A stretch of 64,000 bases of DNA from Muribaculaceae bacterium (GTDB lineage Bacteria; Bacteroidota; Bacteroidia; Bacteroidales; Muribaculaceae), in assembly GCA_022509105.1 (NCBI GenBank), contig JAFLTV010000008.1:1-64000 (forward strand). The letters run 5' to 3'. A model generated the notes under the pieces. It made no database searches. It had not been told where the DNA came from and saw only the letters and a list, made by a program, of their open reading frames with translations. Position numbers and translations under genes: made by a program. Within the stretch, counting starts at the first letter, position 1. The number at the start of each line of letters is the position of its first letter. This document shows, in pieces, positions 28,475 through 35,735 of the stretch.

Positions 28475-30310
28475 TCAGTTTTCTTTATTCAAAAGGTCAA
28501 AACGCAGGATCAGATCGCTTATTTTCCTTGCATTTTTTAAATCATCCATTCTTTGAGGAGAAATTTCCTTTGTCGGCCCCTCGATATTGCCTTCACTTCC
28601 AATTGCCACTCCCGGAAATCCCGATGAAAAAATTGATTGTCCCATTCCTTTCCATGAATATGAATCAAGCCCCATGAGTTCAAGCAAAGACGGATAAATA
28701 TCAATTTCACCCATTTCGCCGTCATATCTTCCGGCAATCGGGGAATTAAGGATTATCAGGGGGGTATGTTGAACGGCATCCACAAATTTCCTGCTTTCCG
28801 GGTTTTCAACCGCCACTTTCCGGTCGGATGCCAGTCCCTCGTGATCTCCGGTTATGACCACCATCGTGTCTTCCCAGTCGCTTCTGCTCTTAAGGTAGTC
28901 TATAAGCGTAATCAAGGAGCTATCGGTGTAATGAGCTGTCATCATATAGTTTTTCACAATTTCCGGATAATCGCCGTCAAATTTTATTTGTTTCAGCTTC
29001 TCAGGCAATTTGAAAGGATAATGGCCCGAGAACGTAACCCATAAAGCAAATACTTTCTCCCCCTCTTTCCATATTTCTCCTTTTTTCAGTTTCTCCACGC
29101 TCTGCCTCATGAAACTTCCGTCGCTCAAACGGTGGGCACCTCCCACAGTTTCATTCTTAACAAAATCAGCGGCATGGATAAGCGAATCAATTCCGAAAGC
29201 TTTTGAAACCTGATATTGATTCCATACGTATGGTTTGTCGCATGTGAGCAGATAAGTGGCAGCTCCTTCCTCCTTCATAGCCTTGGGCAGAGTGAAGAAT
29301 TTATTGCCAACGGCTTCATAGGCATAGACCGTGTTCAGCATAGGCAACATTCCGCTCAAAATCAGCAACTGGGCATCTATGGAACGTCCGTGGCCCACTT
29401 GCGAAACAACATGAGGAGCATAAAATGTGGTGGAATCTTTTAACAAAGCATTCAGATTCGGGGTTAGTTCCTTACCTTCAACAATAGTTTCTATGGGCCA
29501 ACTTTCCAAGGATTCGCAAAAAATCATGATCAGGTTTTCAGGCCTCTTTCTCATAGTCATAGAGTCGACAGGGGCGTTTCCGGTCAGCCTTTGATGTTGA
29601 GCGAGCCAATCGGATACTTCCTTTTCCTCTTCCGGAGATAATTTCTCTGTAGACTTAAAATAGTCATAAACTAAAAAACCGGGAATTGAATAAACGGGAG
29701 CAATACTTGTGACTTCATAGGCTGTTGCCCGCATTTTGTCTATCTGATTTGAAGCTCCCCCGCGCCATGCGTCGGCAATCCAGGATAAAAATGCCAATCC
29801 GCACACGGTGGCAATATAGGGAAGAATCTTTTGAACTTTACTCTTACCATCAATCCGGATAAGATAGATCCCATAAGCCATAATAGTGAGGAAAGGGAGG
29901 GAGAGATAATACCATTTGAAAGAGTCTGTGACACTTGCCGTGAAATCTGCAAGATTGCTCGCCAGCCCATAACTGTGTATTGGAATGGCGTTGAAATATG
30001 TGCGGCAATACATGAGATTGGCAATAAAGATGACGTCGACCACTAACAACACCAAGGCATTTACAAGTCCGTTTTTGGAAAATAAAGTAGGAAAGGCCAA
30101 TAATGTGGCGTTAAGCAACAGAATAGGCCAAAACACAATATAGGAGAAAGGTCGGAAAGTGGTCTGTGACATCCATAAGATATCAAACAGCAACACCGTG
30201 GCAAGTGAAACCACCCACCAGAAAGTGAAACTTTTAGTCCAAAGCTCTTTTGGGAATATTTTTCTGTGAAACTTCTTATCCATTATGATATTATGAATTC
30301 TCCGCGTCAT
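28475..30310 (-). CDS. LTA synthase-family membrane sulfatase/phosphotransferase
   Basis: N-terminal TMs; NLIMIFCESLESWPIE...TPNLNALLKDSTTFYAPHVVSQVGHGRSIDAQ, VVITGDHEGL. Confidence 0.88.
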   Translation of the reverse strand: MTRRIHNIIMDKKFHRKIFPKELWTKSFTFWWVVSLATVLLFDILWMSQTTFRPFSYIVFWPILLLNATLLAFPTLFSKNGLVNALVLLVVDVIFIANLMYCRTYFNAIPIHSYGLASNLADFTASVTDSFKWYYLSLPFLTIMAYGIYLIRIDGKSKVQKILPYIATVCGLAFLSWIADAWRGGASNQIDKMRATAYEVTSIAPVYSIPGFLVYDYFKSTEKLSPEEEKEVSDWLAQHQRLTGNAPVDSMTMRKRPENLIMIFCESLESWPIETIVEGKELTPNLNALLKDSTTFYAPHVVSQVGHGRSIDAQLLILSGMLPMLNTVYAYEAVGNKFFTLPKAMKEEGAATYLLTCDKPYVWNQYQVSKAFGIDSLIHAADFVKNETVGGAHRLSDGSFMRQSVEKLKKGEIWKEGEKVFALWVTFSGHYPFKLPEKLKQIKFDGDYPEIVKNYMMTAHYTDSSLITLIDYLKSRSDWEDTMVVITGDHEGLASDRKVAVENPESRKFVDAVQHTPLIILNSPIAGRYDGEMGEIDIYPSLLELMGLDSYSWKGMGQSIFSSGFPGVAIGSEGNIEGPTKEISPQRMDDLKNARKISDLILRFDLLNKEN

Positions 30311-31181
30311 CTTTGATATCGTTCAAATCATATCGCCTGAAATATTCATCAGCTACGTTTCGTGCTCTTCCGCTTGCCCTTCCGCGGTTTTGTTTCTCGA
30401 GAAATTCTTCATAAGACCTGACGGCATAATGATTGATTCTGATCACGTCGTGTTGCGGTTTCCGGTCTTTCCATGAAATTTTTATTCTGTTGCCATGAGT
30501 GTCTACGGCCTTTCCGTTGATACGGGCGGCTTCATGGCAACCGATCATGCCGTAAACCCGGAGCGGGTCGAGGATGCTCTTGACATGCCTGTTCAGGGGA
30601 TGATCGCTAAGGGAATGATGACGGAATCTTTCCATCATGGTGCCGGGTTCCTTCTTCACGGCGCCTCCGCTGCCATAAACCAACCAATTAATCTCGACAA
30701 CAGGAGCCCCTTCTTTATCTTTCAGAAACTCAGGGATGCTTTTATGCTTAAGCGGCACTATAAATTCATCCATATCTATATAAGCGAGCCATCGAGTGTC
30801 AAAACGATGACGGGCAATGCAATCGTCATAAGCAGCTATCTGCCTCCGATAGCCTGGAAAATAGGTATAGTCAACTATCCCTTTCTCAATATAAGGTTTA
30901 AGCAACTCTTTAGTATTGTCGGTGCTTTCATTGTCATAAACGTAAAACTTATCGACACCTAGGGAGATATGCCAGTCGAGCCATTCTTTGAAATAAGGGC
31001 CTTCGTCTTTGGCTATGACACAGACACTCAAGTAATGTTCCGGCTTCTTTGCGGAGTGTCTGATTTCTTTTTTAAGTTCCCGGGCATTCCTCAGACCGTA
31101 GCGCAAGATGCCACGCCATCGGTTGCGTGTCATCTTATGGGGAATCATGCCAGCTATTATCTCAGCCAATGCTTTGTTCAT
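30291..31181 (-). CDS. Glycosyltransferase family 92-like protein
   Basis: YLSVCVIAKDEGPYFKEWLDWHISLGVDKFYVYDNESTDNT, WLAYIDMDEFIVP. Confidence 0.85.
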   Translation of the reverse strand: MNKALAEIIAGMIPHKMTRNRWRGILRYGLRNARELKKEIRHSAKKPEHYLSVCVIAKDEGPYFKEWLDWHISLGVDKFYVYDNESTDNTKELLKPYIEKGIVDYTYFPGYRRQIAAYDDCIARHRFDTRWLAYIDMDEFIVPLKHKSIPEFLKDKEGAPVVEINWLVYGSGGAVKKEPGTMMERFRHHSLSDHPLNRHVKSILDPLRVYGMIGCHEAARINGKAVDTHGNRIKISWKDRKPQHDVIRINHYAVRSYEEFLEKQNRGRASGRARNVADEYFRRYDLNDIKDDAENS

Positions 31182-31185
31182 GATT

Positions 31186-32673
31186 TCAGAATTTAAATAA
31201 TTGTGAAAGTTCTATCTGTTTTTGAGCCAGATCAACATAAGGATTATTTTTAATTCCATTAGCTGTAATGAATGTAACAATAGGATTTTTACGTGTTTTT
31301 GTCGCCTCGAGAAATATATTTAGTTTGTGATTGAATTCCTGATAATATTTTTTTGTGATTATAAATTCCTCGGCAGAATATTTCATTTCGCAAATATTTA
31401 CCACATTATCTTTCCGGTCAATCAACAGATCTATCTGAGCTTTTTCTCCATCAAAAGCCCCGATCCATGAACAAAGACGTGCATCTACTCCTGATATTCC
31501 TAACGCCTCCTTTATCTGGGGTATATGCCACAGACATAATTTCTCAAAGGAAATACCTCTCCATGTATTTAAAGCCGGGGTTCTTAAATTCATCGTCCAG
31601 AAGTTTTCATTATAATATTTATTTTCTTTGATAAACCTCAAATAAAATAATGAAAACAGATCTATCAACTGGTAGAGTGTGTAAGGACTATTTTTATCAG
31701 TCTTTTTTCTGTGGCTGATTTCAAATGGCAAATATGACCTTATGAAGCCACATTCCTCCAATTCCCTTAAAACATTGGTAAAGCCTCCGTTTCCGGTGAT
31801 ATTAAGCTTCTTGATTAATTGCTGACGCGTCATCCCTTTTCCTATCGCTGCCAGATGTTTCACAACGTTTAGATATAAGTCCGGTTTTTTATATATAGAG
31901 GAATAAAGATAATTGAATTCTTTTACCAAAGGCGCATCAGGTGAGAAAAAGAGCCGGTCGATGTTTTTAATCGGGGTCAAATCTTTTTTCATCAACGAAA
32001 AATAGTAAGGAATTCCTCCCATTATCATATAAATTTCTGCAATATCTTTCTTTGAATAATTGAATCCCTTCTCTTTGAAATATAACGATGATTCGTAAAG
32101 ATTGAACGGCTCTATTTTGAACCTGTGAGTTATGCGGCCGTATAGTCCACCTCTATTGCCAATAATTTTATTAAGTATCCAAGAAGTGGCTGAACCACAT
32201 ACAATCAATTTAATATCCGGATGGAAAGCACATCTCACATTCCAGAAATTTTCTAACGCCTGAAGGAAGTAAGATTTCGGAGTGTCCGCCCAAGGCACTT
32301 CATCCAAAAAAATTATTTTATTTTGCTTCTTTGGCAACCCTTCAATAAAATCACCTAATTTTGAAAAGGCTTCAAACCAGGAGGTAAAAGATAAAGGAGA
32401 GGTTTGATTAAATTGTCTGGCGAGCTCGTCAGCAAAATTGGACAGCTGTCTTGATTTGGGAATATTGTCTGAGGCAGTGAAATAGAATGTAAAATCATTG
32501 CAGGCAGCTTCTCTTATCAAAAGCGTTTTGCCAACTCTCCTCCTTCCATATACAACCACAAATTCGGGATTGTTTGAACTAAGCACATCTCTTAATTCTT
32601 TAAGCTGAGTTTGCCTGCCTACAAAAAAGTTTTTATTTGCCTCCATACTCTGAGCTCTGATATGAATAATCAC
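31186..32673 (-). CDS. P-loop ATPase (archaeal ATPase/DUF234-like); likely start at 32646
   Basis: FFVGRQTQLKELRDVL, VVYGRRRVGKTLLIREA, KIIFLDEVPWAD; C-terminal nuclease-like IDLLIDRKDNVVNICEMKYS. Confidence 0.82.
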   Translation of the reverse strand: MIIHIRAQSMEANKNFFVGRQTQLKELRDVLSSNNPEFVVVYGRRRVGKTLLIREAACNDFTFYFTASDNIPKSRQLSNFADELARQFNQTSPLSFTSWFEAFSKLGDFIEGLPKKQNKIIFLDEVPWADTPKSYFLQALENFWNVRCAFHPDIKLIVCGSATSWILNKIIGNRGGLYGRITHRFKIEPFNLYESSLYFKEKGFNYSKKDIAEIYMIMGGIPYYFSLMKKDLTPIKNIDRLFFSPDAPLVKEFNYLYSSIYKKPDLYLNVVKHLAAIGKGMTRQQLIKKLNITGNGGFTNVLRELEECGFIRSYLPFEISHRKKTDKNSPYTLYQLIDLFSLFYLRFIKENKYYNENFWTMNLRTPALNTWRGISFEKLCLWHIPQIKEALGISGVDARLCSWIGAFDGEKAQIDLLIDRKDNVVNICEMKYSAEEFIITKKYYQEFNHKLNIFLEATKTRKNPIVTFITANGIKNNPYVDLAQKQIELSQLFKF

Positions 32674-32707
32674 GTCAAAGATACCAAAAATATTGTTATT
32701 CTACTAA

Positions 32708-33018
32708 TTATTCCGCGATATTCAGCCCAAGTGTATATTTTTACATACGTTTGGGCTAATTATTCCGCGATATTCGGCCCAAGTGTATATTTTTACATAC
32801 GTTTGGGCTAATTGTTCCGCGATATTCGGCCCAAATGTATATTTTTACATGCATCTGGGCTAATTATTCCGCGATATTCGGCCCAAGTGTGTATTTTTAC
32901 ATACGTTTGGGCTGATTATTCTGCCATATTCGGCCCAAGCGTATATTTTTTACATACGTTTGGGCTAATTATTCTGCGATATTCAGCCCAAGTGTGTGTT
33001 TTTTACTATGGTTAGGAT
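32708..33018. repeat. Six-copy ~52-bp tandem repeat, each copy containing a ~12-bp-stem hairpin
   Basis: Unit AATTATTCCGCGATATTCGGCCCAAGTGTATATTTTTACATACGTTTGGGCT; hairpin starts at 32725, 32777, 32829, 32881, 32933, 32986 (spacing 52,52,52,52,53). Confidence 0.95.
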
Positions 33019-34478: not shown

Positions 34479-35735
34479 ATGGATAAAGGTATATTGAGGG
34501 AAATATTACTTGAAAATCAACGAATGATTCCCCAAATAAAATTAGTCAGGCGAGATTTTACATTTGAAAGAAACGGAAATTATGTGCTGACGGGCGTAAG
34601 GCAAGCGGGAAAATCATTTCTGCTTTATCAAAGAATTTTGCAGATTCTGGAAGAAGGTCATTCTATAGAGGAGATTGCTTTTATAAATTTTGATGATGAA
34701 CGACTGTTCAAAATGGAAGTTTCCGAACTAAATTCCATCATAGAAGCATATAGAAGTCTTTTTAGCCATACTCCAATATTATTTTTTGATGAAATTCAGA
34801 ATATAGAGGGCTGGGAACACTTTGCCAGAAGATTAGCTAATGAAAAATATAGAGTTTATATAACCGGCAGTAATGCCAAAATGTTAAGTCGGGAGGTTGC
34901 AACTGTGTTAGGTGGCCGATACTTTACTAATATGGTTTTTCCATATTCGTTTGAAGAATATCTAAGAGCCTCCGACATTGAATTAAAGAAACATTGGCAA
35001 TATGGAAAAACCGCAGATGAGATTAATAGAATTTTCGCTGAATATTTTATATATGGAGGTTTCCCGGAAATCTTGAAATATCAAGATAAGCGTGGCTGGC
35101 TTAATACTCTTTTTGACCGTATTTATTTCAGTGATATGGTGGTGAGAAATAATGTCAGAAATGAAGAAGGGTTAAGAATGACTGTTAAACGATTGGCAGA
35201 AAATGTCAAACAACCGGTATCTTATGGTAGAATTTCAAATCTTATCAAAGCCACCGGCCTCTCTTCTTCACCGGCTTCTGTTTTAGACTATGTGAAATTC
35301 ATGAGAGAGTCTTGTATGATTTTTTCCATAGAAAACTATAGGTCTAAATTTGTGGAGAAAGAAACTGTAAAGAAACATTATTTCGTGGATAACGGTTTGT
35401 TGAATATTTTCTTGTTGAATGCCGAAACCTCTTTACTTGAAAACATTTGCGCCATACATCTTTATAGAAAATTTGAAAAAGATCTTTATTATTTCAAGAT
35501 GAATGAAGAGGTAGATTTCTATATACCTTCACAAGGATTGGGTATTCAGGTGGCTTATTCTTTGCGAGAATCAAGTGTTATTGAGAGGGAAGTGAAGGGA
35601 TTAAAACTACTCCATGAAAAGTATCCTTTAAATAAAATGTTGATAATTACCAGAGATGAAAAGGATGAAATAGTCTTAAACGATGAAATAAAGATTGAGG
35701 TTATTCCGGTGTGGCAATGGTTATTGGAAGAATAA
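34479..35735 (+). CDS. P-loop ATPase with AAA_14 and DUF4143 domains
   Basis: YVLTGVRQAGKSFLLYQRI, ILFFDEIQNIEGWEHFARRLAN, ITGSNAKMLSREVATVLGGRY, FPYSFEEYLR. Confidence 0.88.
   Translation: MDKGILREILLENQRMIPQIKLVRRDFTFERNGNYVLTGVRQAGKSFLLYQRILQILEEGHSIEEIAFINFDDERLFKMEVSELNSIIEAYRSLFSHTPILFFDEIQNIEGWEHFARRLANEKYRVYITGSNAKMLSREVATVLGGRYFTNMVFPYSFEEYLRASDIELKKHWQYGKTADEINRIFAEYFIYGGFPEILKYQDKRGWLNTLFDRIYFSDMVVRNNVRNEEGLRMTVKRLAENVKQPVSYGRISNLIKATGLSSSPASVLDYVKFMRESCMIFSIENYRSKFVEKETVKKHYFVDNGLLNIFLLNAETSLLENICAIHLYRKFEKDLYYFKMNEEVDFYIPSQGLGIQVAYSLRESSVIEREVKGLKLLHEKYPLNKMLIITRDEKDEIVLNDEIKIEVIPVWQWLLEE

Follow-up and report, generated by a model that had tools for sequence, protein, structure and literature searches.

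Several described ATPases offer points of comparison for the locus analysed here. MalT is a STAND ATPase that acts at promoters with several sites, where it binds cooperatively after oligomerisation (PMC10427625). In the inactive form of MalT, the winged helix packs with the nucleotide-binding domain (PMC10427625). The Orc1/Cdc6 proteins carry an ATPase and then a winged helix, and some of their structures contain origin DNA (2qby). PDC-S27 is a candidate phage-defence family, and the source passages on it count 3503 archaeal and 4562 bacterial systems and describe an ATPase fused to a domain of the PD-(D/E)XK superfamily (PMC12988326). PDC-S27 proteins are also annotated as archaeal ATPases with DUF234. 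The literature passages on this family make no mention of upstream dyads, a DNA-binding winged helix, a code or regulation. A search of open-licence literature for DUF234, COG1672, STAND proteins with inverted repeats and DUF4143 with palindromes found no description of the operators proposed below, although earlier work may be missed by such a search.

Inverted or tandem repeats beside a single protein gene are also found in REP/RAYT and in type III toxin-antitoxin systems. In the window, the whole 64,000-nucleotide stretch of DNA that was analysed, a tandem array of 52-bp units lies beside a PDC-S27 ATPase gene, and both of these systems were tried as candidates and rejected. The module contains no Y1 transposase, no ToxN-type endoribonuclease domain and no dispersed genomic copies, and the promoter lies between the repeats and the gene, leaving the repeats outside the transcript of the ATPase promoter. 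We propose that the array serves the ATPase gene as a tandem operator, which would be read by the winged helix of the encoded ATPase and would control that gene's own promoter. To this reading, drawn from sequence comparison, we give a probability of roughly 0.78.

The ATPase and its 52-bp array

The features discussed are as follows.

30291..31181, minus strand: GT92 glycosyltransferase gene, downstream border of the inserted module
31186..32646, minus strand: PDC-S27 ATPase, 486 aa from the ATG at 32646 (PADLOC PDLC04984, Pfam ATPase_2, AlphaFold2 model)
31381..31431, minus strand: predicted PD-(D/E)XK core, D406...E420-x-K422, from the alignment of homologues
31666..31827, minus strand: predicted winged helix, residues 274-327, with recognition helix 287-298 and wing strands 302-305 and 324-327
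32676..32683, minus strand: -7 promoter box TATCTTTG, 29 bp before the ATG, consensus TAnnTTTG
32704..33018, no strand: putative tandem operator array, 52-bp period, five good dyad units and a degraded distal unit
32725..32756, no strand: dyad 1, gene-proximal, GCCCAA...TTGGGC, centre 57 bp upstream of the -7 box
32777..32808, no strand: dyad 2, centre 109 bp from the -7 box
32829..32860, no strand: dyad 3, variant GCCCAAATGTAT/ATGCATCTGGGC, centre 161 bp from the -7 box
32881..32912, no strand: dyad 4, centre 213 bp from the -7 box
32933..32965, no strand: dyad 5, GCCCAAGCGTAT, loop with one extra T, centre about 266 bp from the -7 box
about 32964/32986..33018, no strand: degraded sixth unit from the unit-by-unit comparison, adjoining the Stealth stop codon
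33021..34091, minus strand: Stealth phosphotransferase gene, upstream border of the inserted module

The minus-strand open reading frame matches Pfam ATPase_2, and its match to PDLC04984 is full-length (E 8.4e-177, residues 17-493, profile positions 4-473 of 474; PADLOC), which places it in PDC-S27. Its Walker motifs are intact (GRRRVGKT and FLDEVPW). The AlphaFold2 model, with a pLDDT of 92.8, contains an ATPase core, a winged helix and a C-terminal domain with D406, E420 and K422, and these three residues are unchanged across 63 homologues. The closest solved structures in a fold search are the archaeal ATPases 2qen (E 1e-11) and 2fna (2e-9), followed by MalT (8bob, third), Orc1/Cdc6, CED-4 and the plant NLR Roq1. 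On the model, the protein is a STAND/ORC-like and NLR-like ATPase with a winged helix and a predicted PD-(D/E)XK nuclease domain. Neither its Pfam matches nor the model contain sensor repeats.

These likenesses have limits. The protein shares the STAND core with MalT, but MalT has a separate C-terminal DNA-binding domain and a sensor domain, whereas here DNA is predicted to be read by the winged helix that follows the ATPase domain, the protein ends in a nuclease-like domain, and the sites found stand at its own gene. Orc1/Cdc6 has the same order of ATPase and winged helix and ranks high in the fold search; unlike origin sites, the sites in the window are promoter-phased and locus-specific, a nuclease-like domain follows, and an origin function is not indicated. 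PABY2304 (2qen) and SSO1545 (2fna) are distant relatives only, because they are about 17-18% identical and shorter (350 residues).

The array is by far the strongest tandem array of the 64-kb window, with a period of 52, 5.8 copies, 89% matches and a score of 486 at 32704-33003 (TRF). A unit-by-unit comparison finds five good copies and one degraded distal copy, which ends at 33018 by the Stealth stop, in agreement with the six-copy array with a degraded terminal copy described in the initial annotation. The base changes that it listed are present in the sequence as well: a T.G pair becomes C-G in copy 5, and two wobbles become A-T and T-A in copy 3, alongside one A.C mismatch. Its further statement that this variation preserves pairing holds for the base changes themselves; two copies of one protein half-site standing in inverted orientation would produce the same apparent covariation. 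A CRISPR array had been discounted from the start, and rightly so: there are no unique spacers, the segments between hairpins are repeated too, and the repeat is the whole 52-bp unit.

Tracing the unit through the host genome and its relatives had also been suggested. The unit occupies a single locus in the 2.39-Mb assembly (79 contigs, 88.85% complete), where a pattern search returned the array, two unrelated chance sites and nothing else. Among 60 relatives no comparable match was found (best E 0.018), and plasmids likewise gave no comparable match.

Promoter position and helical register

Promoters of Bacteroidota carry TAnnTTTG at -7 (PMC7366714). Such a box, TATCTTTG (32683-32676, minus strand), sits between the array and the ATPase ATG at 32646, and the array is therefore upstream of the ATPase promoter. 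The alternative start, GTG at 32673, is only 3 bp past the box, and the ATG is likely the start codon. The array had been placed in the 5' leader of the ATPase, a placement that the intervening box, which is in register, contradicts. In 117 of 139 loci the -7 box lies on the downstream side of the inverted repeat; the two overlap in 21 loci, and in 1 the box precedes the repeat. The repeats are therefore generally not transcribed from the ATPase promoter.

The dyads are a property of the family. An ungapped inverted repeat with a score of at least 10 stands within 200 bp upstream of 86% of 195 non-redundant homologues. The same test is positive in 14% of the upstream regions of 84 other genes (Fisher p 3e-31), in 6% of shuffles and in 39% of the regions downstream of the homologues. 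Inspection of the upstream regions of homologues 37-47% identical found that a different inverted repeat precedes nearly every one; the dyad sequence varies per locus and the geometry stays constant. Clear dyads are present at the copies on Segatella, Butyrivibrio and Emticicia plasmids, a weaker one is present at the copy on a Phocaeicola plasmid, and none is clear upstream of the Malaciobacter copy. In the record of Wolbachia phage WO (L293, MN180249.1), a PDC-S27 homologue is located next to head-tail genes and has two inverted-repeat units, spaced by 56 bp. Two loci, L143 and L145, have an unusually long inverted repeat upstream of the ATPase, with arms of about 57 bp.

The constant geometry follows the turns of the double helix. 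Convergent half-sites are spaced by 26-27 bp in 170 of about 220 cases, and same-strand spacings peak at 52-54 bp, with further peaks near 63, 73, 84, 95 and 106-108 bp. From the dyad centre to the -7 box, the distances across loci are about 4, 26, 37, 47, 58 bp and so on. When 54 loci thinned to less than 55% identity were tested, these distances had a best period of 10.65 bp (R 0.71 at 10.5 bp, p about 1e-12), and the distances from dyad to ATG in the same loci had no period (p 0.69). The dyad centres of the window lie 57, 109, 161, 213 and 266 bp from the box (57+52n). In L041, a 77%-identical relative from the Muribaculaceae isolate HAN056, they lie at 5, 57, 109 and 161 bp. The positions 57, 109 and 161 are thus common to both, even though the array of L041 runs the other way round with respect to its gene (score 92 against 41 for the two orientations). 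Register between dyad and box, and between unit and unit, is a property of the double helix, and it therefore points to DNA and not RNA as the form in which the dyads act.

A neighbouring candidate gene of the window, at 34479-35735 on the plus strand with AAA_14 and DUF4143, belongs to PDC-S01. Upstream of PDC-S01 genes, palindromes with a score of at least 10 occur in 15 of 24 loci (L265-L289), many of them centred 31-35 bp before the -7 box, and the window's own PDC-S01 gene has no upstream palindrome of that kind. This second family may share the same operator design.

The residue-base code and the proposed operator

A motif search gave a half-site consensus near TnGC(C/T)(A/G)(A/T)A(A/T). 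Half-sites were called by an automatic dyad search, and the homologues that entered the code tables had first been filtered for dyad-like sites, with no reference to the protein. Close relatives are 94% identical in their half-sites, compared with 78% between the half-sites, 74% on their outer side and 86% on the promoter side. The bases of the half-site were then scanned by mutual information against 469 protein columns in 125 loci, with no positional prior. Residue 285 came out on top for bases 7 and 8, and residue 288 did so for base 4; bases 9 and 11 both had residue 321 as their leading column (z 12.8 for position 7 with residue 285, 11.6 and 10.1 for positions 9 and 11 with residue 321, and 6.8 for position 4 with residue 288). 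In the AlphaFold2 model, 285 and 288 mark the start of the recognition helix and 321 lies in the wing. The code can be read directly from the tables. At residue 285, Ser goes with C in 38 of 38 cases, Asp with G in 35 of 48 and Asn with T in 24 of 30. With Lys321, base 9 is mostly A (68/72) and base 11 mostly T (56/72); with Arg321, base 9 is mostly T (50/67) and base 11 mostly A (57/67).

The association holds when relatedness is reduced. The same columns led for bases 4, 7, 8, 9 and 11 in a rescan of 70 sequences that were all less than 55% identical. Each of the five pairs ranked first of 470 columns in a held-out test on 63 loci less than 60% identical to the training half. Four of the five were significant in 86 disjoint sister pairs (p 6e-6 to 3e-4), the exception being residue 285 with base 8 (p 0.06). 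Paralogues sharing a genome showed no significant excess of half-site differences (p 0.40). The window by itself offers no check of the code, because its ATPase has rare residue types (G285, G288, P321) and a longer wing, in which the alignment of position 321 is uncertain. The window half-site GCCCAA agrees with the family motif, and the window dyads agree with the family register. L041 has the same GNGGF motif at the recognition helix and keeps the GCCCAA half-site. The winged helix of the encoded ATPase very likely recognises the half-sites, as judged from the covariation. Homology, the family-wide dyads, their geometry, the promoter register, the covariation and the joint insertion described below are well supported by computation.

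The fixed geometry, the promoter register and the residue-base covariation make it very likely that the ATPase binds to the array and controls the promoter of its own gene; from covariation and geometry we infer physical binding, cooperativity and autoregulation. In each 52-bp unit, two half-sites, GCCCAA(A/G).., spaced by about 27 bp, would form one dyad bound by the winged-helix domain. Successive units are separated by about five turns of the helix and keep register with the -7 box, an arrangement that would place several protein copies on one face of the DNA. There, an oligomer of the ATPase, probably bound cooperatively, would control the ATPase promoter, much as the STAND activator MalT works at its multi-site promoters (PMC10427625). 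Because the genes for the ATPase, GT92 and the sulfatase follow one another on the minus strand almost without gaps (28475-32646), this promoter may drive the surface-glycan genes too, and the downstream GT92 and sulfatase would possibly be controlled as well. For the sign of control, our guess is autorepression. It gains a slight edge from the 100 loci, of 141 with a recognisable box, in which a half-site is close to the core promoter or covers it. Most loci have their dyads centred upstream of the -7 box, a position that would suit an activator too. We further guess that repression would be lifted once the ATPase is engaged elsewhere.

The initial annotation thus stands in what it observed (array, units and base changes), the leader placement excepted. 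It had offered three functions for the array. The protein-binding array is favoured by promoter position, helical register, array inversion and winged-helix covariation, the copy-number-variable regulatory element is counted as supported alongside it, and the multi-hairpin RNA is disfavoured on grounds given below.

Other readings of the dyads and their meaning

Dyads with the locus-specific half-sites also follow the ATPase stop codon in 41 of 167 loci and in none after shuffling, usually 1-60 bp from the stop (for example L056, L132 and L149), so that the gene is bracketed on both sides there. These dyads, present at roughly one locus in four, are not needed for plain promoter control, and they show that the downstream excess of inverted repeats is in part specific to the locus. 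Away from the immediate flanks of the gene, the fetched DNA has dyads at only 2 loci, and inside gene bodies there are 0. The ATPase could accordingly sit inactive or primed on its private array as on a parking or licensing site, with loss of DNA contact activating the nuclease. The NLR/ORC-like fold with conserved PD-(D/E)XK residues, the confinement of dyads to the immediate flanks of the gene, the locus-specific code and the bracketing all suit such a role. Transcription control, however, explains the promoter phasing more simply, and we regard the parking site as rather unlikely; it is compatible with the operator reading and does not exclude it. A broader and more doubtful version, to which we give still less weight, makes PDC-S27, and perhaps PDC-S01, NLR-like immune nucleases parked on a private coded array that is both off-switch and operator. 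Each cassette would be its own lock and key, and infection would displace the protein, leading to derepression and nuclease activation.

The surroundings of the gene bear on mobility. In six loci of the same genus, Stealth is directly followed by GT92, and the array and the ATPase are both absent; in the window and in L041, both lie between the two genes. Array and gene appear to be one module, inserted jointly at one site. Near-identical cassettes in different surroundings have in common the DNA from about the outer dyad edge to the stop codon: L070 and L097 (90% identical) share a flank of 89 bp upstream and 0 downstream, and L025 and L026 (96% identical) share 188 upstream and -1 downstream. 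This, together with the joint insertion, supports a compact cassette that would travel together with its operators. Separately, further GTTTCCATCATATTGGAAAC-type hairpins lie directly 3' of the Stealth stop in L041 (2166-2260), and a similar sequence is found near position 1443 of an empty site (L255); these are probably a terminator.

Such borders raise the question of whether the dyads are the ends of a small mobile cassette, used by the ATPase-nuclease for its own movement, with regulation secondary. Joint insertion between Stealth and GT92, the shared DNA ends and the dyads 3' of the stop fit this idea, as does an apparent direct repeat of about 20 bp, ACTCAAAyTCCTTCGGCACC, at both ends of the L252 cassette, which could be an insertion scar. 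In L034, only GGCACC recurs at both ends. Across loci, however, element borders and target-site duplications followed no consistent pattern, and the right-end dyad is absent in three quarters of loci and in the window itself. No transposase-like domain was identified at the module, and phasing locked to a promoter would be superfluous for mobility. We consider the mobile reading quite unlikely. In its strict form, a self-mobile element with terminal repeats and target duplication, it was rejected, with right-end dyads in 41 of 167 loci only and one apparent case of a direct repeat.

A structured RNA, acting in the ATPase leader or as a small RNA such as a type III-like repeat antitoxin, is very improbable. 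Every good unit does fold on the plus strand (GCCCAAGTGTAT / ATACGTTTGGGC, with two G.U wobbles), and copy 3 gains an additional wobble at T10. On the minus strand, which is the sense strand of the gene, the same two wobble positions become A.C mismatches in each good unit. Mismatches within dyads across loci (44 G.U, 33 A.C and 87 other) bear little sense-strand wobble signature, and all Rfam matches fall below the curated cut-off. Further points against an RNA are the -7 box, which follows or overlaps the dyad in 138 of 139 loci, the helical phasing, the inversion of the array between relatives and the covariation of bases with winged-helix residues. A non-functional or generic repeat (terminator, REP-like repeat or slippage product) has practically no claim: tandem repeats can expand by slippage and the upstream Stealth gene ends just before the array, but position, geometry, promoter register and residue-base code are conserved over about 170 loci, and the genome has the unit at one place only.

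Operators, STAND regulators and the PDC-S27 gene family are already known kinds. What appears to be new under the operator reading is a defence-candidate ATPase-nuclease with a private, coded operator array and a predicted winged-helix reader. Among candidate defence genes, PDC-S27 is one of the abundant ones in both bacteria and archaea, with more than 8000 systems counted in the source passages on it (PMC12988326). In the open-licence literature passages on the family, no mechanism was found described. The array would make PDC-S27 accessible to experiment: it supplies a candidate DNA ligand and a promoter, and it points to a binding domain in which three residues would set the specificity through a readable code. 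Because hundreds of variants exist, that code is testable at scale. A STAND/NLR-type ATPase would thereby be tied to sequence-specific DNA binding through its winged helix.
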